The notes below the pieces were generated by a model. It was given only the letters and a program-made list of their open reading frames with translations, searched no databases and had not been told where the DNA came from. This document shows, piece by piece, positions 33,962-49,919 of a stretch of 64,000 nt of DNA; the stretch's first letter is position 1; each line of letters begins with the position of its first letter. The stretch is from Bifidobacterium asteroides (GTDB lineage: Bacteria; Actinomycetota; Actinomycetes; Actinomycetales; Bifidobacteriaceae): contig NZ_CP132384.1 in NCBI RefSeq assembly GCF_030758775.1, positions 310,001 through 374,000 of the forward strand, given 5' to 3'. The translations under genes and the position numbers were made by a program.

Positions 33962-36277
33962 CTAGGCTTCGGCCTCCCTATAGACCGGGGCCTGGCTCTC
34001 GTCGTCCAGGATCAGGGTCATGGTTCGCTCAGGCAGGACCAAATGGATCCTTCGATAGAGAGGCTTGAATCCATAGTGGGTCACGGTAACCGAGCACTGG
34101 CCTTGGCTCTCCATGCGGATCTGATAGAGGTTGTAGGCCCCCTGCTCGTAGTCGAAGCTGTATCCGTCATCCTGATAGTGGGTGTAGTCGCCATGTTGGC
34201 CGAAGAGTCTGAACGTCATGGACTCCTCGGGCTGGTCGTCCATATGCTCCACCAGTCGACCCCAAGGCAGAACGGTGTCGGCCCTGACGAAGATCGGCAG
34301 CTGGTCCAGAGGAGCCTCAACCAAAATATCTCGTTGGCCGCCGAAAGTGACCATGGTACGCAGATCCACCCAGTCGCCCTTGGGCAGATAGACCATTCTT
34401 GAGACCTGCCCTTGCTCTACCACCGGTGCCACCAGAACCTGGTCGCCGACCATGTACTCATCGTTCAAGTTCCGGGTGCGCGCATCTTCTGGGTAATTCA
34501 GGACCAGGGGACGCATAACCGGCAGGCCGTCTTTCATCTGCTTGGCGAAGCAATCGTAGAGGTAGGGAATGAAGCGATACCTCAAGTGCAGGAAATGCCG
34601 GTAAATGTCTAGGACCTCAGGGCCAAAGACCCAAGGCTCCTGGTCTCGTGCCTGGAGTGCGGAATGGTTGCGCAGAAGCGGGCTGAAAATGCCGGCTTCG
34701 ATCCATCGGGTCAGCAGCTCCGGGGTTGTATCGGCGCTGAATCCACCGATGTCGGCCCCGACAAAGCTGAATCCGCTCATCCCCATATTGCAGAGCTGAG
34801 GGATCGACATTTGCAGATGCGGCCAGAGGCTTTGGTTGTCGCCGGTCCAGACCGTTGAGTACTTCTGCGTTCCCGCGTAGGCCGCACGTGTGATGACGTA
34901 GGGCCGTCTGCCGGTGGCTTTTTTCAGGCCCTGATAGGTGGCCTTGGCCATGTTGTGGCCGTAGACATTGTTCATCCTGGCAAGGTCGGACTTCTGATCT
35001 TCATCGCTGAAGACGGTGTCTTCCGGTATCTCTCCGTCGAATACGGCGGGTTCGTTCATGTCTGTCCAGATGCCGGCTGCCCCGCTGTCGACCAGAAAAC
35101 GGCAATGCCCGGCCCACCAGTCGCGGACTTCGGGTCGACCGAAGTCAGGGAATACGGACTTGCCGGGCCAGACCCTGTTGACATAGATGCTGCCGTCAGG
35201 GTTGGTCGCGAAGTACCCCTTATCCAGACCCTCCTGATAGATCGGATAGTCGGGATCCTCTTTGACTCCAGGATCCAGGATGGGGATGACTCTGACTCCC
35301 CGTCTTTTCATATCCGCCAGGAACCCGGCGGGATCCTTGAAGATATTCCTGTTCCAGGTGAAGACGCGGTAGCCGTCCATATAGTCGATGTCGAAGTGGA
35401 CAGCTTCTAGGGGAAGGTGATACTTGGCGAAGGTGTCGACGATCTGCTCCACCCGGTCCTGGCTCATGCTGTAGCCCCAACGTGACTGTTGATAACCCAG
35501 CATCCAACGCTGGGGGAGAGGGACCCGGCCAGTCAGATAGGTATAGTTGGAGACCACCTCCTTCAAGGAGGAGCCGCCCAGTATGTAATAGTCCAGGTTT
35601 CCGTCGACAGCCGAGTAGAAGTAGTAGTCGGCGTTTTCCCTGCCCAGGTCAAGATGGCTCCGGTAGGTGTTGTCGAAGAAGATCCCCCAAGGGCGGCCTT
35701 TTTTCAGTCCGAACAGGACCGGGATGGACTTATAGAGGTTGGTGAAGGTCTCGATGTGCGGGCGCGGCTCATCATAATTCCAGTTGTCGTATTGATAGGA
35801 CCGCTTGTTCAGATAGCCGGTCTTGTCGCCCAGGCCATAGAATTGCTCGTCTGGATCCAAGGCCTTGACTACCTGGTAGTAGTGATCCTCAGTCTGGCTC
35901 ACGCCGGAAACTTCGTGGCCCTCGGCCCGCATGATGCTCTGGTGGGCGGCATCAATCGTCTTGGCGATGGGGCGCCTCTTGCCACGGTAGTCCAGGATCA
36001 ATGGATTGCCCTGAGCGTCGAAGACGTCCAAGAGCAGGTCAGGTCCGACTTTGACGGTCAGCTGCCCTGTGGACAGTTCCAGATGGTCGCCGACCTCTTT
36101 CAGATCGAAGGGAGTCTCCACCTTCTTTTCGCCCTCGATGGCGTAGGAGTTGGTATGTCGTCCCCGGTCCTGAAAGACGCGGATGATTTGGTCCGTCAGC
36201 ACGGTCAGGATCAATGCTCCCTGGTCGGAACTCAGGGTGATGGTCTGACCTTTCGCGGTGTAATGCAGGTTCGTCAT
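33962..36277 (-). CDS. GH31 alpha-glucosidase
   Basis: 771-residue cytoplasmic retaining alpha-glucosidase (no signal peptide). The catalytic nucleophile is Asp 406 in WTDMNEP and the acid/base Asp 509 in VGADIGGF; FDIDYMDGY, WPGKSVFPDF, RNHSALQARDQEPW and the C-terminal beta domains (PVMRPLVLNYPEDA) complete the family pattern. It should release glucose from the non-reducing end of maltose, isomaltose or related alpha-glucosides; the linkage cannot be read here. It forms a module with the adjacent permease and LacI regulator, probably one transcript with the permease (28-base gap). Confidence 0.93.
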   Translation of the reverse strand: MTNLHYTAKGQTITLSSDQGALILTVLTDQIIRVFQDRGRHTNSYAIEGEKKVETPFDLKEVGDHLELSTGQLTVKVGPDLLLDVFDAQGNPLILDYRGKRRPIAKTIDAAHQSIMRAEGHEVSGVSQTEDHYYQVVKALDPDEQFYGLGDKTGYLNKRSYQYDNWNYDEPRPHIETFTNLYKSIPVLFGLKKGRPWGIFFDNTYRSHLDLGRENADYYFYSAVDGNLDYYILGGSSLKEVVSNYTYLTGRVPLPQRWMLGYQQSRWGYSMSQDRVEQIVDTFAKYHLPLEAVHFDIDYMDGYRVFTWNRNIFKDPAGFLADMKRRGVRVIPILDPGVKEDPDYPIYQEGLDKGYFATNPDGSIYVNRVWPGKSVFPDFGRPEVRDWWAGHCRFLVDSGAAGIWTDMNEPAVFDGEIPEDTVFSDEDQKSDLARMNNVYGHNMAKATYQGLKKATGRRPYVITRAAYAGTQKYSTVWTGDNQSLWPHLQMSIPQLCNMGMSGFSFVGADIGGFSADTTPELLTRWIEAGIFSPLLRNHSALQARDQEPWVFGPEVLDIYRHFLHLRYRFIPYLYDCFAKQMKDGLPVMRPLVLNYPEDARTRNLNDEYMVGDQVLVAPVVEQGQVSRMVYLPKGDWVDLRTMVTFGGQRDILVEAPLDQLPIFVRADTVLPWGRLVEHMDDQPEESMTFRLFGQHGDYTHYQDDGYSFDYEQGAYNLYQIRMESQGQCSVTVTHYGFKPLYRRIHLVLPERTMTLILDDESQAPVYREAEA

Positions 36278-36305
36278 GGCAGACGTTTTCCTTTCGTAAT
36301 GTTGC

Positions 36306-37685
36306 TTAGGCCTCGTTGGATTCGGGTTCCCGGCTCTTGATGATGTCCATCAGGGCTGCGCCAATCAGCCAGGAGATGCCCCCGATTAGGAGCATGGTCG
36401 GCATCGATCTGCCCACCAGCGGGAAGATCGCGAAGCTGCTGACCGATGCAATTATCTGCGGGAGGCAGATGAAGATGTTGAAGAGCCCCATGTAGGCCCC
36501 GTCGTTGGCACCGTCGGTTTCCGTAGTGAAAATAGCGAAAGGTTCGGCATGCATGGTCAGGAAGCAGATGCCGATCAATGTGAAGGAGCCGATCAGTGCG
36601 TACTGGTTGTGGGAGAAAGCGGTCCAAATCATTCCCAGGCCGCCGCAGAGCAGCCCAATCCGGTACCAGAATTTGCGCTTGTACTGGCTGGTCCTGGACA
36701 GAACCAGGAATCCGTAGATGATGCCCACGATGGACTGGACGAAGGTGAGGATGCCATACCAGTTGCCGGCGGCCTGGAATCCCGCTGAGGAAGAGTCGGC
36801 CGTGTGCCAGACGTTTTGGGCGATGGCCCCGGTCGTGTAGGTCCAGAGGTACTGGACGCCGAAGTAGGCGAAGAACTGGATGACTGCAACCTGCCAGAAT
36901 GTGCTGGGGGCCTCCTTGAGAAGGGTCCAGTAGGACTTCTGCGGCTTCTTCTCCTCATATTCGAAGTTGTGGTATTGGGCATAGGTCTTAGGATCGTATT
37001 CCTTGACCGAGAGGATGGTGTAGATGGAGGTGGCCAGAAGGACAGCCGCGGCGATGTAGAAGGAGAGTCGCACAGACATGGGGACCACTCCTTTCTTATC
37101 GATGTTGGCTATACCCAGCCCGGTCAGCAGGAAGGGGCAGAGGTTGGCCAGAACGCCTCCCAGATTGCTGAAGGACTGTTGCCAGGACCAGGCCTGGTCC
37201 TTCTGCTTCTCGTTGACCATGTCGCCGATGATCATGCGGAAAGGTTGCATGCAGGCGTTGTTGGACAGGTCCATAAGGACGATGGCTGCTGCTCCGAAGC
37301 ACAGAGCAGTTACGGATCCGTAACCAAAACCAAAGGAACCGGAATTCGGCAGCAAGACCATGACGATGGCAGCCAGGGGAGCGGCCCAAAGCAGGATGGG
37401 CATCCGGCGGCCGAAGCGTGGGGACCAGTGTCCGTCAGAGAATCGTCCCAGGATTGGTTGAATGATCATTCCGATCAGGGGCGGCAGTATGAAGAAGAAC
37501 CCAAGCTTGCTTGGGTCGGCACCCAGAGTCTGGAATATGCGGCTCATCTGTGAGGTCTGCAGGGAGAAGGCCATGTTGACGCCGCAGTAGCCGAAGGTGA
37601 TGGCGAACATGGTCTTCATGGTGATATCCGGTAGCGAATGCCGTTTCTTGGTAGAGGCATCACTCGTCATTTGAGGTGCGCTCAA
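36306..37685 (-). CDS. MFS sugar permease (GPH/SUC-like, alpha-glucoside type)
   Basis: 459 residues with about 12 membrane helices. FGYCGVNMAFSLQTSQMSRIFQ and PLIGMIIQPILGRFSDGHWSPRFGRR (read in two parts) are typical of maltose/sucrose symporters of the SLC45/GPH type. Likely imports the substrate of the neighbouring glucosidase. The start is taken as TTG at 37685 because AAAGGAG lies five bases upstream; an ATG 15 bases later (37670) is the alternative. Preceded by the operator at 37719-37730. Confidence 0.85.
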   Translation of the reverse strand: MSAPQMTSDASTKKRHSLPDITMKTMFAITFGYCGVNMAFSLQTSQMSRIFQTLGADPSKLGFFFILPPLIGMIIQPILGRFSDGHWSPRFGRRMPILLWAAPLAAIVMVLLPNSGSFGFGYGSVTALCFGAAAIVLMDLSNNACMQPFRMIIGDMVNEKQKDQAWSWQQSFSNLGGVLANLCPFLLTGLGIANIDKKGVVPMSVRLSFYIAAAVLLATSIYTILSVKEYDPKTYAQYHNFEYEEKKPQKSYWTLLKEAPSTFWQVAVIQFFAYFGVQYLWTYTTGAIAQNVWHTADSSSAGFQAAGNWYGILTFVQSIVGIIYGFLVLSRTSQYKRKFWYRIGLLCGGLGMIWTAFSHNQYALIGSFTLIGICFLTMHAEPFAIFTTETDGANDGAYMGLFNIFICLPQIIASVSSFAIFPLVGRSMPTMLLIGGISWLIGAALMDIIKSREPESNEA

Positions 37686-37718
37686 GGTATCTCCTTTGAT
37701 CTTTTGTAAACAATTACT

Positions 37719-37742
37719 GTAAACGTTTACGGTATGAGTATA
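37719..37742 (-). promoter_or_regulatory. LacI-type operator GTAAACGTTTAC with adjacent TATACT -10 box
   Basis: A perfect 12-base palindrome with a central CG (37719-37730), the classic LacI/GalR site form, directly downstream of TATACT (37742 to 37737 on the minus strand) that would drive the permease and glucosidase genes. A second half-like site TTGTAAACAA is at 37704-37713. The divergent lacI gene lies on the other side, so both directions may be repressed. Confidence 0.7.
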
Positions 37743-37834
37743 CAGCCTCATTCATCTTTTTCATGCCCGGGCGTGTGGCTATGATGGCCGATGACGTAGA
37801 AACTGGGTCCGGCATGGGTTCGGCAGAGGGAAAG

Positions 37835-38866
37835 ATGGAGGTCATGGCTGAAGCTTCCAGAGTGACCTTAAAGGACATAGCCCAGCGGTTGGGGCTGTCG
37901 ACGGCTACCGTTTCGCGTTCCCTTTCCGACACCGGTGAACACAGGGATCAGACGGTACGCTTGGTCAAGGAGACGGCCAAGGAGATGGGGTACATCCGCA
38001 ACACGGCAGCGGCCGACCTCGTTCAGGGCAAGAGCCATGCTTTGGCTGTCATCCTCTCCAACACCAAGACCAATTTCGATTCTTCAATCATCGAGGGGAT
38101 CGAACAATCAGCTGCGGAACGGAACCTGGATGTGTTGATTCTCCATGCTGGCAACGCTGATCTGCAAGCCCAGCGGCGGGCCATCACCACTGCGGTAGAG
38201 CGTGCCGTCAGAGGAATTATTCTGGTCTCCCTCGAGCTCCAGGAGTCATTGATCGCCACCATAGAGCAGGTGGGAATGGATTGCATATCGCTCTCATCCT
38301 TTGTGGGCGGCGGACGGCTGCCCTGCATTACTTCAGATGACTATCAGATGGGGTATGAGGCCACGCAGTTTTTGATTGACCAAGGTCACCGACGGATCGG
38401 GTTGGCGGGCATTCCTAAGCATGGTTCAATCACTCTGCGCATCAGCGGGTACCGGCAGTGCCTGGAGGATAACAGCATCCCTTATAGGGAAAGTCTGGTT
38501 TTCCGTGGGGGATGTCTCTACCAGGATGGTATAGCCGCCATGAAGCGCTGTCTAAAGACGAAAGAACAGATCACTGCCCTTATCGGTGCCAGCGACCTGG
38601 TGGCTATGGGTGCCATCAACCAGGCCAGGGACCAGGGGTTGGATGTGCCCGGTGACGTGAGTGTCATGAGCTTTGACGGCACGGACATTGTAGAAATGGT
38701 CAGGCCCACCATAACCAGCGTCACCCAGGCCTTTTACCGTATGGGAGTGGAGGGAGTCAAGGCCCTGCTGTCCGGAGACAAGCCGGGTTCGCGTTTTCTG
38801 CCTTTCCGGATAATCAGCAGGCAGTCCACCGGACCGGGCCCTTGCCTGCACGGTGATCATAAGTGA
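37835..38866 (+). CDS. LacI-family regulator of the alpha-glucoside module
   Basis: 343 residues. N-terminal LacI helix-turn-helix VTLKDIAQRLGLSTATVSRS (about 8-27) and hinge NTAAADLVQGKSHALAVIL, followed by the periplasmic-binding-like effector domain with FDGTDIVEMVRPTITSVTQ near the C terminus. Divergent from the permease-glucosidase pair, sharing the operator region. Start 37835 has AGAGGG upstream; ATG 37844 is possible and the frame is open to 37763. Confidence 0.88.
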   Translation: MEVMAEASRVTLKDIAQRLGLSTATVSRSLSDTGEHRDQTVRLVKETAKEMGYIRNTAAADLVQGKSHALAVILSNTKTNFDSSIIEGIEQSAAERNLDVLILHAGNADLQAQRRAITTAVERAVRGIILVSLELQESLIATIEQVGMDCISLSSFVGGGRLPCITSDDYQMGYEATQFLIDQGHRRIGLAGIPKHGSITLRISGYRQCLEDNSIPYRESLVFRGGCLYQDGIAAMKRCLKTKEQITALIGASDLVAMGAINQARDQGLDVPGDVSVMSFDGTDIVEMVRPTITSVTQAFYRMGVEGVKALLSGDKPGSRFLPFRIISRQSTGPGPCLHGDHK

Positions 38867-38883: not shown

Positions 38884-40026
38884 TCACAGGTGCAGTTGAG
38901 CCAAAAGGCCGCAGTGGTCGGTGTGCGGGACTTTCATGACCTTCATCGATTCGACCCTGATGCCTTGGCTGACCAGGATATGGTCGATTTCGATCAGCGG
39001 CGGTAGAAGTGCCTGGCAATGCGGAAAGGTCGGATGCGGCCCGCAACCTAGGGAAAGGGAGGCATCACGCAACCTGCCGGACTGCAGCATAGCGCGAAAG
39101 GTGGGGTGGTGCAGGTTGGCGTTGCAGTCGCCCATGATGACGGTGAATGCGGGCGATTCCATGTCTGGGGCGGCCGCCGTCTTTTCGTTGTTCAAGAGAG
39201 CCAGGCGCTCAATGCCTAAGCCCCATTGTCTGGCGCCGCGTTGGGGCGACTTGGGATGGACTGAAGCCACGCGGATTGTTCCAGCTTGGGTATGCAAAAG
39301 CATCAGAGGGACGGCTGAAGCTTCCAAATCAAGGCCTGACGGTTGATGCCATATGGGCTCCAGACGAGAGAAGAGGGCGTTCCTGCCGCCATTGTCATTC
39401 TGGGTCTGCGGCCCCTCCACCAGGTATGGCATGATCTGCCTCATCCCTGCTTTCTGAAGATGAGTCAGCAGCGTCGAGTTCACTTCCTGCAGGGCTAAAA
39501 CGTCGACATCATGGCTTTGAACCTGCTCCATGATGGTCTGCGCATCCGCCTTGCCATAGCGGCAGTTTAGCGTCATTACTCTCAAGGAAAGGGCTGGATG
39601 GCTAGCGGCTGGAGCCCGGTCGCGAGTTTCTGTGTGGACCTGTGCTGAATCAGGCGTGACCTGATTGAGCTGGTTTGATTTGGGACTGTCTGCATAGGCA
39701 TCTGCTTCATTACTAGTATCGGTGCGATGCCTATTGTTTGACAGTAGCCCAGTTCTGTGCCCCGAGCCCGTTGGAGAGGACAGGTGAAACCTGTACTGGA
39801 GTCTCCACAAGGTGACCAGAGTCAGCTCAATCAGGGCCAGGGCGGACTGTGGCCAGGCCTGGATCACAATGGCGCAGACCAAGATGGCCAACAGGGGAAC
39901 GGCCAAGAGGTCGATCAGGGCGATCAGCTCTACCAGAGGGCGGTGCCAGTCAGTTCCGGCAGGGAGGAAGCGCAGGGCCATCCACAAGGCGATGAGCCCC
40001 AGGAGAATCCAGAGAAGGGTGTTCAC
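38884..40026 (-). CDS. membrane-anchored endonuclease/exonuclease/phosphatase family protein
   Basis: 380 residues. About three N-terminal helices (LLWILLGLIALWMALRFL, ALIDLLAVPLLAILVCAIVI), a polar linker of about 60 residues, then the EEP metal-dependent phosphoesterase domain: RVMTLNCRYGKAD, DVLALQEVN (metal Glu), MGDCNANLHHP, EIDHILVSQGI and HTDHCGL (catalytic His). Substrate may be DNA, a phospholipid or an inositol phosphate; not decidable. GTG start with AGGAG ten bases upstream. Lies 31 bases after ffh on the same strand. Confidence 0.83.
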   Translation of the reverse strand: MNTLLWILLGLIALWMALRFLPAGTDWHRPLVELIALIDLLAVPLLAILVCAIVIQAWPQSALALIELTLVTLWRLQYRFHLSSPTGSGHRTGLLSNNRHRTDTSNEADAYADSPKSNQLNQVTPDSAQVHTETRDRAPAASHPALSLRVMTLNCRYGKADAQTIMEQVQSHDVDVLALQEVNSTLLTHLQKAGMRQIMPYLVEGPQTQNDNGGRNALFSRLEPIWHQPSGLDLEASAVPLMLLHTQAGTIRVASVHPKSPQRGARQWGLGIERLALLNNEKTAAAPDMESPAFTVIMGDCNANLHHPTFRAMLQSGRLRDASLSLGCGPHPTFPHCQALLPPLIEIDHILVSQGIRVESMKVMKVPHTDHCGLLAQLHL

Positions 40027-40056
40027 GTGCCATTGTCTCCTGCAGGAGAGAGGGGT

Positions 40057-41673
40057 TTAGCGGCCGCCGAAGAGACCGCCCAGTCCGCCGCCAAGGTTGG
40101 GCGGCAGGTCCGGCAGGCCTTCAGGCATCTGCGGAGTTTCGGGGCGCTTGGCGAAGGCGGAGCCGCCGGAGGATTTGCCCTTGCCGGACAGGCGCTCGCG
40201 TAACGCCTTCTCTTCGGCCTCCCGCTTCATAGGATTGCCTGAACGGGAGCCCTTGCGGCCTTTCTTGCCCTTTTTGCCCTTCTTGCCGCCGCCAGCGCCC
40301 ATGCCGCCCATGCCTGGGATCGAGCGGCTGCCATTGGTCATCCGCTTCATCATCTTGGCCGCCTGCTCGAACCGCTGCAGCAGGCCGTTGACAGCCGAGA
40401 CCGTAGTGCCGGCGCCATAGGCGATCCGGGCCCGCCGCGAGCCGTCGATGATGCTGGGGTCGCGTCGCTCCTGGGGAGTCATCGACTGGATGATGGCCTG
40501 GGTCCGGTCCACTTCCTTCTCATCGAACTGCTCAAGCTCCTTGCGGTGCTGGGCCATGCCCGGGATCATGCCCAGGATGCTCTTGAAGGAACCCAGCTTG
40601 CGAACCTGCTGGAGCTGCTCCAGAAAGTCGTCCAAACCGAAGCTGCCCTCGGACATCTTCCCGGCGGCCTTGCGGGCCTCCTCCTCGTCGAACTGGCGCT
40701 GGGCCTGCTCGATCAGGGTCAGGATGTCACCCATGTCCAGAATGCGGGAGGCCATCCGGTCGGGGTGGAAGACCTCGAAGTCCTTGAGGCCCTCGCCGTT
40801 GGAGTCGAAGAGGATGGGCTTGCCGGTCACCGAGGCCACCGACAGGGCCGCACCGCCTCGGGCATCGCCGTCCAGCTTGGACAGGACCACGCCGGTGAAA
40901 TCCACGCCCTGGTCGAAGGCCTTGGCTGTGGCGACTGCATCCTGGCCGATCATGGCATCGATGACGAAGAGGATCTCGTTGGGGTGGACGGCATCGCGGA
41001 TATTGCGGGCCTGCTCCATCAGCTCCTGATCCACGCCCAGCCGACCGGCCGTATCAATGATGACCACGTCATAGAGCTTGTCCTTGGCCACCCTGATCGA
41101 GTCGGCTGCCACTTTGACCGGATCGCCTGTGACCTGCCCCGGGGCTGCCAGCTCGGATCCGCTGGTCTGCACGCCTGGCTCGGGTGCGTATACCGGCACT
41201 TCGGCGCGCTCGCCGACCACCTGGAGCTGGGTGACCGCATTGGGCCGCTGCAGGTCGGCCGCCACCAGCAGGGGGGTGTGGCCGGCATCCTTGAGCCAGT
41301 AGCCTAGTTTGCCGGCCAACGTGGTCTTGCCGGCACCCTGCAGGCCAGCCAGCATGATGACTGTGGGCGGATTCTTGGCGAAATTGAGCGGTCGATCCAC
41401 TCCAGCGCCCAGGATGTCAGTCAGTTCGTCGTAGACGATGGAGACTACCTGCTGGGCCGGGTTCAGGGCCTTGGAGACCTCCTCGCCCAGGGCGCGTTCC
41501 CTGATGCGTCCGGTAAAGGATCGCACCACGTCCAGGGAGACATCGGCATCCAGGAGGGCGCGGCGGATCTCGCGGATTGTGCCGTCGATGTCGGCCTCGG
41601 TCAGCTTCCCCTTGGAACGCAGATGGGTGAAGGCCTGGGAGAGCCGGTCGGTCAAAGATGAAAATGCTGCCAT
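40057..41673 (-). CDS. ffh: signal recognition particle protein Ffh
   Basis: 538-residue SRP54 GTPase that targets nascent membrane proteins. N domain (FSSLTDRLSQAFTHL), G1 LAGLQGAGKTTLAGKLG, DTAGRL, SKLDGDARGG, then the M domain with FLEQLQQVRKLG, the Met-rich SILGMIPGM, and a Gly/Lys-rich C-terminal tail (GGGKKGKKGKKGRKG). Insert in the G domain (VYAPEPGVQTSG) is typical of bifidobacteria-like versions. Gene order ffh then rpsP further downstream is the actinobacterial one, here separated by the sugar module. Confidence 0.95.
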   Translation of the reverse strand: MAAFSSLTDRLSQAFTHLRSKGKLTEADIDGTIREIRRALLDADVSLDVVRSFTGRIRERALGEEVSKALNPAQQVVSIVYDELTDILGAGVDRPLNFAKNPPTVIMLAGLQGAGKTTLAGKLGYWLKDAGHTPLLVAADLQRPNAVTQLQVVGERAEVPVYAPEPGVQTSGSELAAPGQVTGDPVKVAADSIRVAKDKLYDVVIIDTAGRLGVDQELMEQARNIRDAVHPNEILFVIDAMIGQDAVATAKAFDQGVDFTGVVLSKLDGDARGGAALSVASVTGKPILFDSNGEGLKDFEVFHPDRMASRILDMGDILTLIEQAQRQFDEEEARKAAGKMSEGSFGLDDFLEQLQQVRKLGSFKSILGMIPGMAQHRKELEQFDEKEVDRTQAIIQSMTPQERRDPSIIDGSRRARIAYGAGTTVSAVNGLLQRFEQAAKMMKRMTNGSRSIPGMGGMGAGGGKKGKKGKKGRKGSRSGNPMKREAEEKALRERLSGKGKSSGGSAFAKRPETPQMPEGLPDLPPNLGGGLGGLFGGR

Positions 41674-41916
41674 AATGCCCCAAGTCTACCTGTCAGCCGG
41701 GAGATTGGCCGGCAGCTCCGTAAGGCCTGCGCCCTGAGCCTACCAGACGTAGGAGGTTCGGGAGAATTCGATATTGATGGGCGAACGGTTGTAGTGCTTT
41801 GACTGTTGAGAAGTACGGAAACAATGGTTGAACACGGGTGTATCGATCACAAGAAGGAGGGTGAGAGGGTCTGAGCAGCTATATAGAAGAAAGATATGAG
41901 TCTACTTTGTGTCTTC

Positions 41917-41961
41917 TTGACATGGTGCCCAACTAGCTTCTATACTGAATCGAAACGATTC
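41917..41961 (+). promoter_or_regulatory. near-consensus promoter overlapped by operator O1 of the GH172/ABC operon
   Basis: TTGACA (41917-41922), an 18-base spacer and TATACT (41941-41946) are followed without a gap by GAATCG-AAA-CGATTC (41947-41961), a palindrome at the expected transcription start. Repressor binding there would block initiation. Confidence 0.75.
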
Positions 41962-42011
41962 GACATTTTGGTTGCATCGACGGCATGGTCAACGCCTGCA
42001 CTACGCCCGGA

Positions 42012-42027
42012 GTCGAAACCTTTCGAC
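42012..42027. promoter_or_regulatory. operator O2, GTCGAAA-CC-TTTCGAC
   Basis: Perfect seven-base arms with a two-base centre, 65 bases from O1 (about six helical turns) and 52 bases before the solute-binding protein ATG. The shared TCGAAAC core indicates the same LacI-type regulator, probably the one encoded at 46510-47520. Confidence 0.65.
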
Positions 42028-42079
42028 ATGTTGAATCGCAGTAGATGGATGCAAGGATGCAAGGAAGTTAGGAGCCATC

Positions 42080-43390
42080 ATGAAGATCAGAAGAGGGATC
42101 GGGGCGGCCTTGGCCTTGGCCATGTCGATCCTGCCGCTGGCGGCCTGCGGATCGGGGGGCGATGCTCCCCAGGAAGCCCATCCGTCCAGCATCAAGATCT
42201 GGTACTACGAGGAGCCCAGCAGCGGTCAGGCCCGGGGCTGGCTGAAGGCTGCCGATATCTTTACCCGACAGACCGGCATCAAGGTGGATTTCGAGGTAAA
42301 GTCATTCACTCAGATTGCCCAGAATGGCAGCCAGTTCCTCAACTCGGACGACGCCCCGGACGTCATGGAGTCCAATCGCGGCAACGGCTCGGCCGGGGTC
42401 CTGTCCACCCTGCAGCTGCTGACCGACCTGAAGCCCTATGTACAGAAGTACGGCTGGGACAAGAAGGTGCGCGGCCAGGCGGCGGCAGTGGGCAAGTACG
42501 ACAAGCGCGGCGTCATGGACGGGGATACCTGGTACGGGGTTTCCTCCTACGCGGAGATGCAGCGCGTCTACTACAACAAAGACTTGTTTGCCAAGTACAA
42601 GATTCCCATCCCGCAAACCTTTGACCAGTTCGTGGCAGCCCTCAAGGCCTTCAAGAGCCACGGCGTCACGCCCATAGCGGCCGATGCCCAGGAATATGGG
42701 GTGCTCTGGCTCTGGTGGCAGCTGGCCATGACCAAGGCCGATGCCCAATTCGTCGACGACTGGCAGCTCTACAAGCATCCAGTCAACTGGCGCAGCAAGC
42801 CGCTGACCTTCGCCACCAACACCATCCGTGACTGGATCGACAAGGGATATATCTCCAAGAACGCCACCGGCATGAAGGCCGAGGACACGACCACGGCATT
42901 CATCAAGGGGACCTATCCCATCTACCAGACCGGCACCTGGAACCAGACCCGCTTCATGGAGCAGGTCAAGGCTTTCGACTGGACGGCATCCATCTTCCCG
43001 GGGGCCAAGATGGTCGAGGGCTGCGCGGGCAACCTGCTGGTCATCCCGCAGAAGTCACGGCGTAAGGATGCCGCGGCCCGCTATATCAATGTGGTCCTGT
43101 CCAAGGAGGTTCAGAACTACATCGGCAACAAGGGTGGCGTGCCAGTGGCGGCTGACACGGCGGCTATTACCAACCCCAAGAGCCGTGATCTGGTCAATGA
43201 ATACACCAAAGCCTCGGACGCCAGCCGGATGAGCTACTATCCCGACTACCCTGCGCCCAACCTGACCGACGCCATGCCGGCCGCCTTCCAAGAGCTGGTC
43301 AACGGCACCAAGAGCCCCGACCAGGTTTTGGACACCCTGCATAAGAACTACGACGACGGCGTCGCCCAGCTCGATCTCGATGACGACTGA
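42080..43390 (+). CDS. sugar ABC transporter substrate-binding lipoprotein
   Basis: 436 residues. Lipoprotein signal peptide with lipobox LAAC (Cys about residue 23), then a CUT1 family-1 extracellular binding protein: IKIWYYEEPSSGQARGW, TGIKVDFEVKSFTQIAQN, WYGVSSYAEMQRVYYNKDLF, YPIYQTGTWNQTRF. Aromatic residues typical of sugar binding are frequent. First gene of the operon with two permeases and the GH172 enzyme, under the promoter and operators just upstream. No ATPase gene is included, so a shared MsmK/MsiK-type ATPase elsewhere probably powers it. Confidence 0.9.
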   Translation: MKIRRGIGAALALAMSILPLAACGSGGDAPQEAHPSSIKIWYYEEPSSGQARGWLKAADIFTRQTGIKVDFEVKSFTQIAQNGSQFLNSDDAPDVMESNRGNGSAGVLSTLQLLTDLKPYVQKYGWDKKVRGQAAAVGKYDKRGVMDGDTWYGVSSYAEMQRVYYNKDLFAKYKIPIPQTFDQFVAALKAFKSHGVTPIAADAQEYGVLWLWWQLAMTKADAQFVDDWQLYKHPVNWRSKPLTFATNTIRDWIDKGYISKNATGMKAEDTTTAFIKGTYPIYQTGTWNQTRFMEQVKAFDWTASIFPGAKMVEGCAGNLLVIPQKSRRKDAAARYINVVLSKEVQNYIGNKGGVPVAADTAAITNPKSRDLVNEYTKASDASRMSYYPDYPAPNLTDAMPAAFQELVNGTKSPDQVLDTLHKNYDDGVAQLDLDDD

Positions 43391-43421
43391 GCTGCGTCAA
43401 TCCGCCAAGGAGAGTACAAGC

Positions 43422-44357
43422 ATGTCTGACACACATAGCAGGAAGAAGGCGCAGTCCCGCATCCCGGGCAGTGCGCCCTCGCGGTTCGTTCCTTATCTGA
43501 TTCCCGGTCTGATAGGCATCGTGGCCATCGTCATCGTGCCCATCTTCTGGAACATCTATCTGAGCTTCACCCGCTGGAGGGGGGTGGGGCCGACCAAATG
43601 GGTGGGTCTGCGCAACTGGCGACGACTCATGGGCGACTCGACCTTCTGGGTCTCCTTCGGGCACACCCTCTGGATCATCGTGGCCATCGTCATCATCCCC
43701 ACGGTTCTGGGCCTGCTGATCTCCTCGGCCCTGACTGACGTGATCCAGAAGAAGTTCGGCCCCCACACCTCCTCGACCCTGCGGGCCCTCTACTACCTGC
43801 CTCAGGTCCTGCCTGTGGCCGTGGCAACTATCATCATGGGCTGGATCTTCAGGCCTGAAGACGGTGCGGTCAATGACCTGCTGACCAAGATCGGCTTGGG
43901 CGGACTGGCCCACAACTGGCTGGGCTCGACCACCACGGCACTGCCCATCCTCATGGTCATCCTGATCTGGATCCAGCTGGGCTATCCCATCGTCATTTTC
44001 ATGTCCGGACTGCAGCGGGTGGATCCCGAGCTCTACGAGGCGGCCAGCCTGGACGGGGCCAACTGGTGGCAGAAGTTCCGCGTCATCACCCTGCCCTCCA
44101 TCATTCCCGAGCTCCTGGTGGTCATTCTCACGTCTACCATCGGTGCGCTGAAGACCTTCGCCCCGGTTTATTTGCTGACCAAGGGCGGGCCCGGCACCTC
44201 CACTATGGTTCCCTCCTACTACTCCTACAACCAGTTCTTCCAGGTGCAGCAGGTGGGCTACGGTGCCGCCATCTCGACATCCCTGACCGTGGTCATCGTC
44301 ATCTTCTCCATCGTCTTCACCATCGTGCAGAAGCGCGTGCAAAAGAACATCGCCTGA
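43422..44357 (+). CDS. CUT1 sugar ABC transporter permease (MalF-like)
   Basis: 311 residues with six membrane helices (for example YLIPGLIGIVAIVIVPIFW). The EAA loop reads EAASLDGANWWQKFRVITLPS near residue 206-226, the contact site for the ATPase. ATG at 43422 has AAGGAGAG ten bases upstream; 31 bases after the binding protein gene. Forms a heterodimer with the next permease. Confidence 0.9.
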   Translation: MSDTHSRKKAQSRIPGSAPSRFVPYLIPGLIGIVAIVIVPIFWNIYLSFTRWRGVGPTKWVGLRNWRRLMGDSTFWVSFGHTLWIIVAIVIIPTVLGLLISSALTDVIQKKFGPHTSSTLRALYYLPQVLPVAVATIIMGWIFRPEDGAVNDLLTKIGLGGLAHNWLGSTTTALPILMVILIWIQLGYPIVIFMSGLQRVDPELYEAASLDGANWWQKFRVITLPSIIPELLVVILTSTIGALKTFAPVYLLTKGGPGTSTMVPSYYSYNQFFQVQQVGYGAAISTSLTVVIVIFSIVFTIVQKRVQKNIA

Positions 44358-44377
44358 GGAAGGCTAGGAAGCACATC

Positions 44378-45259
44378 ATGAATAATCAAGCCACACTGCA
44401 AGCCGACGCCCGGGTGTCCTCCCGGCACGCCCATAGAATCCGCACCTGGGGGGACTGGGCCGGTCTGATCCTGCTGATTGCCGGAGCCGTAATCATGCTC
44501 TTCCCCCTGCTGATCCTGGTCCTGAACGCTTTCAAGACTACGGCTGACTACAACGCCACGGGTCCCCTGTCCGTGCCTGCCCACTTCAGCATGGATGGCA
44601 TCATCTCCTTCTGGAACAAGAGCAATTTCCCGCTCAAGCTGGGCAACTCCCTGCTGATTTCCCTGGTAGTGGCCGTTGTCGGGGTCCTGCTTTCGGTCCT
44701 CAACTCCTTCGCTCTGGGCATCGGCAGGGTCAAGGGCAACACGGTCATCCTCCTGTTCATCATGCTGGCCAACATGGTCCCCCAGGAGGCCCTGCTCTAT
44801 CCGCTCTACGTCATGTTCAAATGGATGGGCTTCTACAACTCCCAGTGGTCCATCATCATCATCTTCACCATCATCCAGAGCGCCTACGGCACCTACCTGC
44901 TCTCCTCGGTCTACGGTACCTTCCCCCAGGCCATCCTGGAAGCGGCCACCGTCGATGGGGCCTCGCGCTGGCAGATTCTGCGCAAGATCGTACTGCCGGT
45001 GTCCTGGTCGACCATCAGCGTCCTCTTCGTCTTCTTCTTCATCTGGACCTGGAACGAGTACATGATCCCCATGGCCTTCCTGATGAGCGAGAAGACGCAG
45101 ACCATACCGCTGGCCCTGGCGACCATGCAGGGGCAGCACACCATGGCTGCCACCGACCTGGCATCCGCCTCCCTGCTCAGCATCATCCCCACCATCATCT
45201 TCTTCATCTTCTTCCAGAGGAAGCTCTCGCAGGGGATAGTGGCAGGTGCTGTCAAGTAA
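44378..45259 (+). CDS. CUT1 sugar ABC transporter permease (MalG-like)
   Basis: 293 residues, six helices, EAA loop EAATVDGASRWQILRKIVLP. Typical MalG-type N-terminal NAFKTTADYN segment. Starts 20 bases after the MalF-like gene with GAGGAAGG upstream. The open frame further 5' overlaps the previous gene and is not used. Confidence 0.9.
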   Translation: MNNQATLQADARVSSRHAHRIRTWGDWAGLILLIAGAVIMLFPLLILVLNAFKTTADYNATGPLSVPAHFSMDGIISFWNKSNFPLKLGNSLLISLVVAVVGVLLSVLNSFALGIGRVKGNTVILLFIMLANMVPQEALLYPLYVMFKWMGFYNSQWSIIIIFTIIQSAYGTYLLSSVYGTFPQAILEAATVDGASRWQILRKIVLPVSWSTISVLFVFFFIWTWNEYMIPMAFLMSEKTQTIPLALATMQGQHTMAATDLASASLLSIIPTIIFFIFFQRKLSQGIVAGAVK

Positions 45260-45352
45260 TCGCCGCTGCACAAGTACACTGAACATGGCCGCCCGCTGCA
45301 AGAGGGCAGAGGAGGGGAGCGGGCGGCCCGAACATGAAAGGCAACCACAACC

Positions 45353-46483
45353 ATGGGTATGACCATGCCGAACTTCACCAACGGTCTTGAGGCGCTGACT
45401 CGCCCATCCACAGACCGCACCCGTTGCATCAACGCCGAGAACCCTCGGGGAGGCAAGGGCAGTGCAGCTATGACTGCAAGCAATCTCGGTCCATCCAGAA
45501 AAGGAACCCCATGCCTGAGGAACATCCCTCCTGGGCAGGACATGGTTCTAGCCGACCTGTCCGGCGCGGGCGAGATCCGTCATATCTGGATGACCGTGAC
45601 CGATGCCACTTCGCCTACCGGGCCCAACGTCCTGCGCAATCTGATTCTGGAATGTTACTGGGATGGGGAACAGACACCCTCAGTCTGCGTGCCTTTGGGC
45701 GACTTCTTCTGCTGTGGCCACGCCCAGGCCTGCCGGGTGGAGTCCGTGCCTGTAGCCGTCTACCCACGCCGGGGCTTCAACTGCTACTGGCCCATGCCTT
45801 TCCATCACGGGGCCCGGATCGTCCTGCGCAACCGCCACAACGAGCCCATCGAGGCCTTCTTTTACCAGATCGACTATGTGGAAAAGGACGAGCTGCCCGA
45901 GCAGGTAATGACCTTCCATGCCCAGTGGCGCCGTCAGCGGGTCACCGAACTGGGTCAGGACTATGTGATCCTGGACGGAGTACATGGCCGGGGCTCCTAC
46001 GTGGGCACCTATCTGGCTCTGACTGCCCTGGAGAGCCGCTGGTGGGGCGAGGGCGAGGTCAAGGTCTACCTGGACGGGGACAAGGACTATCCCACTTGGT
46101 GCTCCACGGGCAGCGAGGACTACTTCGGCGGTGCCTGGAGCTTTGCCGGGCAGGATCCGGATGGTCGTATGCACGAGGTCACCTACAGCGGGGCCTACAT
46201 GGGATTTCCCTTCCATTCCAGGCAGTTGGACAATCGCGAATCCCAGTACTGGGATGCCGATACCCCGGTGACCAGAGGATTCTATCGTTGGCACATTCCC
46301 GACCCCATTATTTTCGCGAGCGATATCAAGGTGACCTTGCAGCAGATAGGCGTGGACGAACAGGGCTACTTCGAACGTCAAGATGACCTGGCCAGTGTGG
46401 CCTATTGGTACCAACAGGAGCCTCACCAGCCCTTCCCGCACCATGTGCTGGAGACAGGGGAGAGGGACCGTCGGCCACGCTGA
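45353..46483 (+). CDS. GH172 (DUF2961) glycoside hydrolase, alpha-D-fructofuranosidase/arabinofuranosidase type
   Basis: 376-residue cytosolic protein of DUF2961, now GH172, whose founding enzyme is the difructose dianhydride I synthase/hydrolase of Bifidobacterium dentium; alpha-D-arabinofuranosidases belong there too. Blocks seen: NAENPRGGKG, GEIRHIWMT, CVPLGDFFCCGHA, WPMPFHHGA, and WWGEGEVKVYLDG...GSEDYFGGAW. By family comparison the likely catalytic pair are Glu 233 in GEGE and Glu 255 in GSEDY. No signal peptide, so it would act on an oligosaccharide imported by the transporter genes just upstream (93-base gap). Exact substrate is not decidable; inulobiose or DFA I, or D-arabinofuranosides, are candidates. 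Confidence 0.85.
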   Translation: MGMTMPNFTNGLEALTRPSTDRTRCINAENPRGGKGSAAMTASNLGPSRKGTPCLRNIPPGQDMVLADLSGAGEIRHIWMTVTDATSPTGPNVLRNLILECYWDGEQTPSVCVPLGDFFCCGHAQACRVESVPVAVYPRRGFNCYWPMPFHHGARIVLRNRHNEPIEAFFYQIDYVEKDELPEQVMTFHAQWRRQRVTELGQDYVILDGVHGRGSYVGTYLALTALESRWWGEGEVKVYLDGDKDYPTWCSTGSEDYFGGAWSFAGQDPDGRMHEVTYSGAYMGFPFHSRQLDNRESQYWDADTPVTRGFYRWHIPDPIIFASDIKVTLQQIGVDEQGYFERQDDLASVAYWYQQEPHQPFPHHVLETGERDRRPR

Positions 46484-46509
46484 GTGGCGGCTCGGGCGGA
46501 CTCCGGCTT

Positions 46510-47520
46510 CTATCGGCTGATGGAGGAGCGGTCGATCAGCTTGGGACGCTCCAGTTGGACTCGGCCGGCCAGGGAAGCCCCCTCCTCCACAGCCTGGGTC
46601 AGCAGATCCGCAGCCTTGGCACACAGTGAGCGGGGGGTAAGGGGCATCTCTGAGATGCCTTGAAGCTCAAGAGTGGGGCTGACCTTGCCTGCGGCGCAAG
46701 ACAGAACGGCCACGTCATCAGGAATACTCATGCCGTCCGAGCGCATGCGAATCACCACGGTGTCCAGCAGGGAGGGGCGGATCTGGCTGATCAGGCCATC
46801 GATGCGGCCGTGATGGATAAGATCCAGCACCTGCTGGGTATAGGCCAAATCGCTGCCGGTAGGTCCCGGCTGAAGCTGCAGATCCATGCCCAAGCGGCAG
46901 GCCCAAGTCTTGAGACTGCGTAGCAGGATAAGGCGGAAGCCGGAACCGCGCCGGTATTCGCCCTCGAGATCCTCCAGAAAGAGCAGGCGTTTGCATCCCG
47001 CCCGGGCCATGGCTTCCACCGCCATGCGGCCCATCAGTTCGAAGTCCAAATCCACACAGGCGCAGGCTGCGTGCTGCTGAGGCACTCCCAAGGCCACGCA
47101 GGGGCGTCCGTATGAGGCGGCCTGGGCGGCGCGTATGTCATCGTCCACCAGATCCATCAGGACCACGCCGTCGGCCAGATTGCTGCGGGTGACCCGCCGA
47201 ATATCTTCGACGCCGTTTTCGGCGGTCAGCAGCAGGGAGTCATAGCCACGGGCATGCTCGCAGCTGGCCATCTCGATGAAGTAATCTGCGTAGGAGGCCC
47301 GGTTCTGCCCGGGGCGCAGGGGGGCGCTCAGGGCGACAATCTGATTGCGCTTGGCCCGCAGCATTCGGGCACCGGCATCCGGGGCGTAGTCCAGTTCGTC
47401 GGCGGCTTGCATGATCCGCTGGTAGGTTTCCGGAGAGACGGGACGCTTGCCAGAGAAGGCATAAGAGACTGTGCTGACCGAGACTCCGGCCCTTCTGGCG
47501 ACATCGCGTATATCGGACAT
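46510..47520 (-). CDS. LacI-family regulator of the GH172/ABC operon
   Basis: 336 residues. Helix-turn-helix IRDVARRAGVSVSTVSYAFS at the N terminus, hinge DAGARMLRAKRNQIVAL, then the sugar-binding effector domain (GVVLMDLVDDD, CACVDLDFELMGRMAVEAM). Convergent with the GH172 gene, 26 bases away, and unlike other genes nearby has no obvious alternative target, so it most likely binds the O1/O2 palindromes. Its 5' end lies four bases from the cysS stop. Confidence 0.88.
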   Translation of the reverse strand: MSDIRDVARRAGVSVSTVSYAFSGKRPVSPETYQRIMQAADELDYAPDAGARMLRAKRNQIVALSAPLRPGQNRASYADYFIEMASCEHARGYDSLLLTAENGVEDIRRVTRSNLADGVVLMDLVDDDIRAAQAASYGRPCVALGVPQQHAACACVDLDFELMGRMAVEAMARAGCKRLLFLEDLEGEYRRGSGFRLILLRSLKTWACRLGMDLQLQPGPTGSDLAYTQQVLDLIHHGRIDGLISQIRPSLLDTVVIRMRSDGMSIPDDVAVLSCAAGKVSPTLELQGISEMPLTPRSLCAKAADLLTQAVEEGASLAGRVQLERPKLIDRSSISR

Positions 47521-47524
47521 GAGG

Positions 47525-49102
47525 TCAGCGGTTCAGATCCCAGGTGCTGCCAGCGGGTGTGTCCGCCACGGTCACGCCGGCCGCCGTCAGCTGATCCCTG
47601 ATGGCATCGGCCCGGGCGAAGTCATGATCCTTTCGTGCTTGATCGCGTTCCTTCAACTGCTGGCCTACCAAGGCATCCAGGGTGTTCATGGCTTGATCGT
47701 CATGGTCGGCTGCAGCCCCGGCCCAGTGGGGATCGAGGGGATCAAGGCCGAAGACATCCAGCATGGTTCTGACCTGGAGCAGGGCATTAGCCAGCCACTT
47801 CCGATCCAGAGCATTCGGATCCGCATCCATGGCCGCGTTGGCTTGACGGATCAGTGCATAGAGGGCGGCCAGGCCGCCTGAGACGTTGATGTCGTCATTC
47901 ATGGCCTGCACAAAGTCCTCCGGCAGATCATCCGCGCTCAGTCCAGCCACGCGGGCACGCTCGGGCTGTGCGCCCAGGATCCGCCCGGCCCGGTCCACGA
48001 AGTTGCGGATGCGCTCATAGGCGCCCTCGGCCTCCTGCAGGGACTGGTCGGACCATTCCAGCATGGACCGGTACTGCACCGAGACCAGGGCGTAGCGCAC
48101 CACCCAGGCCGGATGCTGCGAAAGCACCTGGTCCACGGACAGCCCGTTGCCCAGGGACTTGCTCATCTTCTCGCCCTTCTGGGTCACCCAGGCCGTGTGC
48201 ATCCACCGATGGGCGAATCCCCAGCCGGCTGCGTGCGACTGGGCCATCTCGTTCTCGTGGTGGGGGAAGCGCAGGTCCAGGCCGCCTCCGTGGATGTCGA
48301 ACTCCGCGCCCAGATAGCGGTGGCTCATGGCCGAGCATTCCAGGTGCCAGCCCGGCCGACCTGTGCCGAAGGGTGTTTGCCAACGAGCCGTGGGTGGATC
48401 GGTGGGCTTGGGCGCTTTCCAAAGTGCGAAGTCGCGGGGGTCGCGCTTGCCGGGCTCCTCATCGGGGTCGGCAGCTTGCTCATCGGTGTCGATGCTGGGT
48501 CCCAGCCGGTCGTTGGCGGCGGCCTGTTCGTCAGCGGGCTGGGTGCCGGTCTGCTGGTGGGTCAGGGCACCATACTCGGGCCAGGAAGCCACGTCGAAGT
48601 AGACGTTGCCTGATGGGCGGCCCTGTTCGTCGGGCACCACATAGGCGTGGCCGCGGTCGATGATGCGCTGGATCAGGTCGATCATCTCGGGGATGTGCCC
48701 GGTAGCTCGGGGCTCGTAGGTGGGTGGCAGGGCTCCCATGGTCTCATAGGCATGGGTGAATTCGCGCTCGTAGATGTAGGCCCGCTCCCACCAGCGCTGG
48801 CCGTTGGCCGCCGCCTTGGTCAGGATCTTGTCGTCGATATCAGTCACGTTGCGGATCAGGGTCACCTGGTAGCCCAGCCTGAGCAGCCAGCGTCGGATCA
48901 CGTCGAAGGCCAAGGTGGTCCTGATATGGCCGATGTGGGGCGAGCTCTGCACCGTGGCCCCGCACACGTAGATGCCAACCTTGCCCGGTTCGATAGGCCG
49001 GAAGGGGGTCACCTGGTGACCAGCTGTGTCATACAGACGCAGACCAGCTGCGGCCAGGCTGACTGAAGCCTTGGAATCATGCGGTTGCGAACTCGTATCC
49101 AT
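47525..49102 (-). CDS. cysS: cysteinyl-tRNA synthetase
   Basis: Class I synthetase charging tRNA-Cys. 525 residues: CGATVQSSPHIGHIRT contains the zinc cysteine and the HIGH-type motif, RNVTDIDDKILTKAA, WHLECSAMSHRYLG (zinc ligand) and the KMSKS loop GEKMSKSLGNGLSV. A polar insert at about residues 175-215 (DEQAAADPDEEPGKRD region) enlarges the CP1 area. ATG at 49102 is used because homologues begin near here; the open frame runs to 49372 across the divergent gene. Confidence 0.94.
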   Translation of the reverse strand: MDTSSQPHDSKASVSLAAAGLRLYDTAGHQVTPFRPIEPGKVGIYVCGATVQSSPHIGHIRTTLAFDVIRRWLLRLGYQVTLIRNVTDIDDKILTKAAANGQRWWERAYIYEREFTHAYETMGALPPTYEPRATGHIPEMIDLIQRIIDRGHAYVVPDEQGRPSGNVYFDVASWPEYGALTHQQTGTQPADEQAAANDRLGPSIDTDEQAADPDEEPGKRDPRDFALWKAPKPTDPPTARWQTPFGTGRPGWHLECSAMSHRYLGAEFDIHGGGLDLRFPHHENEMAQSHAAGWGFAHRWMHTAWVTQKGEKMSKSLGNGLSVDQVLSQHPAWVVRYALVSVQYRSMLEWSDQSLQEAEGAYERIRNFVDRAGRILGAQPERARVAGLSADDLPEDFVQAMNDDINVSGGLAALYALIRQANAAMDADPNALDRKWLANALLQVRTMLDVFGLDPLDPHWAGAAADHDDQAMNTLDALVGQQLKERDQARKDHDFARADAIRDQLTAAGVTVADTPAGSTWDLNR

Positions 49103-49193
49103 ATCCTTGAGCCTACCAAGGCTTGCTGACTGCCCAGGGGGAAATGCCGAGCCTGCAGACCCGGTCCGATGGCATGTGTGCAAGAATGGAATC

Positions 49194-49919
49194 ATGGCGA
49201 AACCTAGGGTGCTGGTGGTCCAGCATGTGGATTGGGAGAAGCCGGGTCGCATTCTCGACAACCTCCAGGAGTGCGGGCTGGATACCGAGATCACCAATAT
49301 CGTGGATGAGAAGAAGCCCAAGCTGCCGCGCTCGCGTGAGTTGGCGGGACTGGTCATCATGGGCGGGCCCATGTCGGCTGACGACTATGCGCATCACCCC
49401 GGACTCAAGGCAGAGACCAAGCTGGCCAAGGCGGCGATGGCTGCCAACAAGCCCATTCTGGGGATTTGCCTGGGTCATCAGATTTTGGCGCGGGCCCTGG
49501 GAGGCACCCTGATGCGGGATCAGGATCCCGAATATGGCATGGGCCCCATCCGCTGGGTGGGGCAGGACGACGACGTGGCCATGTGGAGCAAGAACACGGA
49601 TGTGCTGCACTGGCACGCCGACCAGGTCACCCTCCCGCCAGGGGCCAAGCTTCTGGCCCGCTCCCAGGCAACCAAGGTTCAGGCTTTTCGGCTTGGATCG
49701 GCCTTGGGCCTGCAGTTCCACCTGGAGGTGACGGCGCCCATTTTCGAGGAGTGGATGCAGGTGCCGAGCATGGTTGGCACGATGAAGAAGTCCAAGATCG
49801 CTAAAATGCGCGAAGAATTTATCAAAGGGATGCCGCAGATGCAGCCTCTGGCCGATGCCATCTTCTCTGCCTTTGCGGCCAGGTGCTCGACTCAGGCCGC
49901 CCAGCTAGCTGCCGCCTGA
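49194..49919 (+). CDS. class I glutamine amidotransferase-like protein
   Basis: 241-residue stand-alone GATase1 domain of the GMP-synthase-like type. Nucleophile Cys in ILGICLGHQILA (about residue 93), His and Glu in LQFHLEV (about residue 174-180). MGGPMSADDYAHHPGL is typical of the group that includes putative glutamine amidotransferases beside no synthase partner. Amide acceptor unknown. Divergent from cysS; converges on the ABC-F gene with two bases between stops. Confidence 0.85.
   Translation: MAKPRVLVVQHVDWEKPGRILDNLQECGLDTEITNIVDEKKPKLPRSRELAGLVIMGGPMSADDYAHHPGLKAETKLAKAAMAANKPILGICLGHQILARALGGTLMRDQDPEYGMGPIRWVGQDDDVAMWSKNTDVLHWHADQVTLPPGAKLLARSQATKVQAFRLGSALGLQFHLEVTAPIFEEWMQVPSMVGTMKKSKIAKMREEFIKGMPQMQPLADAIFSAFAARCSTQAAQLAAA

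Follow-up and report, generated by a model that had tools for sequence, protein, structure and literature searches.

What controls the sugar-uptake operon that lies between ffh and cysS in Bifidobacterium asteroides, and which protein acts on its promoter? The DNA analysed here, called the window, is a stretch of 64,000 nucleotides that corresponds to positions 310001-374000 of a genome consisting of a single contig of 2,083,947 bases. The island between these two genes is made up of a plus-strand operon for an ABC solute-binding protein (SBP), two permeases and a DUF2961/GH172 glycosidase, followed by a convergent LacI gene. Its features and flanks, in window coordinates, are as follows.

40057-41673, minus strand: ffh (TIGR00959)
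42080-43390, plus strand: ABC solute-binding protein (PF01547, 8e-30)
43380-44357, plus strand: ABC permease 1 (PF00528, 8.8e-22)
44363-45259, plus strand: ABC permease 2 (PF00528, 3e-14, scanned as a longer open frame from 44066)
45353-46483, plus strand: GH172 (DUF2961) glycosidase (PF11175, 3.6e-90, 302 bits)
46510-47520, minus strand: LacI-family regulator, convergent with the operon (PF00356, 60.1 bits; PF13377, 36.8 bits)
47525-49372, minus strand: cysS (TIGR00435)

The regulator combines a LacI helix-turn-helix (PF00356) with a periplasmic-binding-like effector domain (PF13377), both of which score above cut-off, and permease 2 has a GlcU-like match (4.5e-34) that falls under the cut-off of that model. 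ABC sugar importers of this type often share one ATPase, and no ATPase gene was seen in the island. Elsewhere in the window, at 33962-38866, a separate island harbors genes for an MFS transporter and a GH31 glycosidase, together with a further LacI gene (37763-38866) that is oriented divergently.

The region upstream of the SBP gene was aligned among ten bee-clade genomes, namely the window and L009-L014, L016, L048 and L049. It contains the following elements.

41917-41922, plus strand: -35 hexamer TTGACA, 6/6 positions invariant in the ten genomes
41941-41946, plus strand: -10 hexamer TATACT, 5/6 positions invariant (TATAAT in L013)
41950-41963, no strand assigned: putative operator O1, TCGAAACGATTCGA, 14/14 positions invariant, covering the probable start point near 41953
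42013-42026, no strand assigned: putative operator O2, TCGAAACCTTTCGA, 13/14 positions invariant, with its centre 60 bp upstream of the SBP start codon
42070-42074, plus strand: likely ribosome-binding site AGGAG, from the sequence

A preliminary description of this DNA had proposed a promoter of the form TTGACA-18-TATACT, and it is indeed found at 41917-41946, with 11 of 12 consensus matches, an 18-bp spacer and hexamers that are invariant at 11 of 12 positions in the clade. By themselves, the hexamers are not significant, since shuffled sequences yield 1.7 promoter-like matches on average; the interval 40000-48000 has two, this one being the better. As a rule, transcription starts about 7 bases past the -10 hexamer, which would place the start at about 41953. 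The 33 bp preceding the SBP start codon (42047-42079) are invariant at 32 positions in the ten genomes and hold a GGATGCAA tandem repeat, a degree of conservation that exceeds the needs of a ribosome-binding site.

O1 and O2 are copies of one 14-bp LacI-type motif. Its 18-letter versions, GAATCGAAACGATTCGAC (41947-41964) and GAGTCGAAACCTTTCGAC (42010-42027), are equal at 15 of 18 positions when aligned as GARTCGAAACSWTTCGAC, and inverted repeats are located at 41947-41961 (GAATCGAAACGATTC) and 42012-42027 (GTCGAAACCTTTCGAC). O1 scores 6 of 8 palindromic pairs in the odd register and the same in the even one. The odd register, adopted in the preliminary description, was rejected, as its GAATCG flank occurs in the window only (GAGTCG in eight and AAATCG in one of the other clade genomes), TCGAAACGATTCGA is invariant, and the sites of distant relatives are mostly TCGAAACGWTTCGA. 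The proposal of an operator right after the promoter, at the likely start point, is supported by comparison among genomes, in a register other than that first assigned. The second operator also stands, at a shorter distance than the 65 bases originally given: the even-register centres, 41956.5 and 42019.5, are 63 bp apart, and the figure of 65 arose because the first site was read in the odd register. The centre of O1 is CG, at -123 from the start codon, and that of O2 is CC, at -60; O1 has the form of a LacI-family site, an even palindrome with a CG centre situated 30-140 bp before a start codon.

Chance occurrence of the pair is excluded by the pairing of the sites within 63 bp and, above all, by their conservation, and not by the bare count of matches. 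In the window, the 16-mer has four matches at up to three mismatches, versus 0.91 in shuffled sequences. On both strands of the whole genome, the exact TCGAAANNNTTCGA occurs at three places, O1, O2 and 1029020-1029033 (reversed control, one match per strand), and the symmetric TCGAANNNNTTCGA at five (reversed control, two); these exact-match counts are slightly above those of the reversed control and, as bare counts, are weak evidence. Scanning the genome for the rest of the regulon, a check suggested at the outset, brought up no convincing additional site, the counts at two to three mismatches not exceeding the reversed control: with two mismatches the whole-genome counts were 119/115, versus 141/142 for the reversed pattern, and a second relaxed scan gave 37/33, versus 37/33. 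No homologues of the operon proteins were found around one exact and two 2-mismatch matches (L125-L127). The exact match at 1029020-1029033, which precedes a transketolase-like frame, was rejected as an operator of the convergent LacI, given its AT rather than CG centre, its inclusion in a longer 29-bp element and a palindrome that is broken in three relatives. That element (G000:C1:1029020-1029048, L125), just 5' of the transketolase-like gene, has repeated TCGA words and the palindromic TCGAACATTTTCGA with its AT centre, and 16 of 27 genus genomes have it with 0-2 mismatches.

Of the 40 positions that make up the two hexamers, O1 and O2, 38 are invariant within the bee clade; the corresponding figures are 3/18 for the promoter spacer, 2/24 upstream of the -35 hexamer, 21/49 between O1 and O2, and 10/20 after O2. 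O1 and O2 are 63 bp apart in the window and 64 bp apart in L013, and the other eight genomes have a spacing of 65 bp. Among the nine loci returned in a search for LacI relatives, the closest named ones come from B. asteroides-group bifidobacteria of the bee gut, at 92-97% identity (B. choladohabitans, B. asteroides, Bifidobacterium sp. 7101, B. mizhiense, B. polysaccharolyticum and B. mellis); B. indicum comes next, at 61%, and then B. apousia, where the match spans 53 residues. The order -35/-10/O1 recurs before L050 and L053, whose LacI proteins are 74% and 60% identical to the convergent LacI, and before a decayed locus of B. apousia (L017).

The latter (L017:9800-12700) is one of three decayed operons, with L122 and L123, that have kept the GH172 gene (95% identical) and the promoter with O1; no importer gene was found in them, and of LacI only the first 53 residues were found in L017 and L122, and nothing in L123. 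In L051 and L052, the latter being B. indicum and the same genome as L015, LacI and GH172 are retained without a linked importer, and the sole site before the GH172 gene is a 12/14 match, GCGAATCCTTTCGA, at about 7661.

Does the motif extend beyond the clade, and does it follow the regulator? In a family set of 189 genomes, the convergent LacI has a homologue (E <= 1e-60, identity 38-100%) in 45, and in 41 of these an SBP gene is linked to it; G139, G140, G041 and G007, without a linked SBP gene, were not counted. A site of at least 13/14 was found within 400 bp upstream of the SBP gene in all 41 linked cases, 38 of them with a perfect 14/14 match, and in 34 a site has its centre 38-75 bp upstream of the SBP start codon. 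Two or more sites are present in 25 of these promoters and one in 16. In a lenient control, a 12/14 site occurred in 6 of 2050 mononucleotide-shuffled regions. Where the LacI homologue is present (45 genomes), 40 have the exact TCGAAACGWTTCGA, versus 13 of the 144 genomes without it; the reversed control occurs in 4 of 189. The Fisher p value for this co-occurrence, 4e-24, is too small, as the genomes are related and their independence is overstated, but its direction is plain.

Three genomes with the homologue lack the exact TCGAAACGWTTCGA and have 13/14 sites (G138, G014, G065), and two others, in which the LacI and GH172 genes are kept and the importer is not linked, have only a 12/14 site (G139, G140). 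In G041, one of the 40, the exact motif adjoins another LacI gene, 37% identical. As for the 13 genomes with the motif and without the homologue, in seven it stands upstream of an SBP gene that belongs to a related operon, in a region with a LacI protein of 33-36% identity, in four it lies near another LacI or a GH172 match, and in two near nothing recognised. In 11 distant relatives (L065-L067, L069-L071, L074, L077-L080), the LacI homologue, at 361-395 aa, is longer, possibly reflecting a different oligomeric form. The same 11 have an operator also before lacI, 1.3-1.5 kb from the importer site; in contrast to many relatives, no operator was found 5' of the lacI gene at 46510-47520.

Might the O1 inverted repeat function in RNA, as the hairpin of a terminator or attenuator? 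O1 was called terminator-like, with 7 pairs of which 3 are G-C; nevertheless, such calls number six versus 4.3 in shuffled sequences, the probable start point lies inside the stem, so that the RNA would be devoid of most of the 5' arm, and distant relatives retain an even DNA palindrome, TCGAAACGTTTCGA. A search of 41700-42200 against Rfam, with E values up to 1, gave no match to a terminator, a riboswitch or any other family. A role as a hairpin is most improbable.

The assignment of a regulator to O1 and O2 is supported by the presence of the motif upstream of the operon in all 41 linked cases and by its tracking of the regulator among genomes. The recognition helix, residues 13-20, reads VSVSTVSY in 42 of 46 homologue rows (45 genomes, one represented twice), down to 38.6% identity, the others being VSASTVSY (two), VSISTVSY (one) and VAISTVSY (one). 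In the present genome, 2 of 20 LacI-type helix-turn-helix matches have a V-S-[VI]-STVSY helix. The second, with VSISTVSY, is the sole other close one and belongs to a paralogous LacI (G000:C1:1643686-1644681; L128:7687-8682), which lies beside an importer whose SBP is 48%, and whose permeases are 63-66%, identical to those of the window operon. Might this paralogue control the promoter, alone or together with the convergent LacI? Its nearly identical helix and the relatedness of its importer genes would be compatible with such a role, as would the occurrence of the same motif at related operons elsewhere that have a LacI of 33-36% identity. Against this, no site of at least 12/14 was found in the 16-kb region of the paralogue itself, and across the family the motif follows the linked lacI gene, making control by the paralogue unlikely. 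AraQ was rejected as a binder, its consensus TGTGAGCGCTCACA being unlike the site. As judged from sequence, the LacI protein at 46510-47520, which the preliminary description had also named, is thus well supported as the protein that would bind O1 and O2; the paralogue may be a second binder.

How the two sites might work together is a separate matter. The preliminary description had invoked helical phasing and cooperative repression through a loop, that is, a tetrameric or helper-assisted repressor that would bridge O1 and O2 across about 63 bp. A lac-type loop requires a tetramer or a helper and a phase that is kept, the tetramer of LacI being formed through a C-terminal helix. At 10.5 bp per turn, the distance of 63 bp does correspond to 6.0 turns, and within the clade the spacing does not leave the range of 63-65 bp. 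Outside the bee clade, however, the spacings range from 55 to 196 bp, and 16 of the 41 promoters have a single site. In a set of 13 representative spacings, in which near-duplicates were collapsed by hand and the bee clade was represented by 63 and 65 (63, 65, 196, 83, 108, 88, 76, 76, 94, 154, 166, 117 and 55 bp), no phasing was detected at 10.5 bp (R 0.29, p ~0.34; R 0.21 with 11 spacings). Nominal p values of 0.01 at 10.0 bp and 0.03 at 11.0 bp, and a peak at 10.1 bp (p 0.04) in a period scan of 10.0-11.2 bp, point to some weak clustering, which is not zero evidence; still, it is not read as a same-face loop because the phases at 10.0 bp centre near half a turn. The protein, with 336 aa and a C-terminus that reads LIDRSSISR, is close in length to PurR and CcpA (chains of 332-340, PurR 340) and shorter than the full LacI chain of 360; judged by chain length, it may be too short for a LacI-type tetramerisation helix. 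Looping between O1 and O2 is not supported by these data, and it appears quite unlikely.

With strong confidence, the region is instead viewed as the control region of a local LacI regulon, in which a sigma-70-type promoter would drive the four genes for the sugar-binding protein, the two permeases and the GH172 furanosidase. As long as no inducer is present, the LacI protein at 46510-47520 is predicted to occupy O1 as a dimer, to cover the start point and thereby to block initiation, acting by repression and not activation. On the simplest reading, a separate dimer at O2, centred near +67, would independently obstruct elongation. The repressor would then be released from the DNA by the sugar that is taken up or by one of its breakdown products.

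The nature of the sugar is suggested by the glycosidase. GH172 enzymes cleave alpha-D-fructofuranosyl and alpha-D-arabinofuranosyl bonds, according to two reports (PMC8605356, PMC10509167). Among solved relatives, the window GH172 is closer to the exo-alpha-D-arabinofuranosidase 8ic8 (234.8 bits) than to the difructose dianhydride enzyme alphaFFase1, 7v1v (128.1 bits); 4kq7 and 8ah3 score 141.1 and 126.2 bits. By analogy with GH172 biochemistry, the inducer would be an alpha-D-arabinofuranosyl or alpha-D-fructofuranosyl sugar. A broader proposal can be put forward only tentatively, and as a whole it is doubtful: the regulator that recognises TCGAAACGWTTCGA, conserved in Bifidobacteriaceae, may control the uptake and cleavage of such sugars, with an operator near -60 that might act as an elongation block family-wide, and with O1 at -10/+1 as a feature of the bee clade and of lineages close to it.

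The mechanism is an ordinary one, that of a well-conserved local LacI regulon. What is gained is a firm operator consensus, with its regulator, for a GH172-importer operon present in many bifidobacteria, and a simple binding assay could test for the inducer and, with it, for the substrate on which this GH172 branch acts in nature. In the literature searched, no description of this operator and no printed name for the TCGAAACGWTTCGA regulator were found, nor was either 14-mer found as text; logos and supplements lay outside the search, and absence from print is not claimed.

In the lac system of E. coli, the tetrameric LacI uses an operator that covers the start point together with an auxiliary operator. 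The arrangement of operators is alike here, but the window protein may, by its length, be too short for the tetramer helix, and phasing is not kept in relatives. A survey of LacI-family sites (Ravcheev et al., 2014; PMC4052901) reports more than one site for about 20% of operons and describes the palindromes as even and, in most cases, centred on CG. With their even palindrome and their positions at -60 and -123 relative to the start codon, O2 and O1 fit LacI-family norms, whereas the distance of 63 bp differs from the peak spacings of tandem sites, 13, 22 and 32 bp. The B. dentium operon LacI-GH32-GH172-ABC with BBDE_2040 (Kashima et al., 2021; PMC8605356) unites LacI, GH172 and ABC-importer genes, as the window does; unlike that operon, for which no operator is described in the parts of the paper covered, the window operon has no GH32 gene, and its GH172 matches 8ic8 better than alphaFFase1. 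There is also a likeness to the local LacI regulons of bifidobacteria reconstructed in ten genomes, the B. asteroides group not being among them (Khoroshkin et al., 2016; PMC4746261). Several B. dentium regulons in Table 2 of that study have no assigned pathway. In the local regulons of the ten genomes, as in the window, the regulator gene lies beside a transport and glycosidase operon whose promoter region contains the site.
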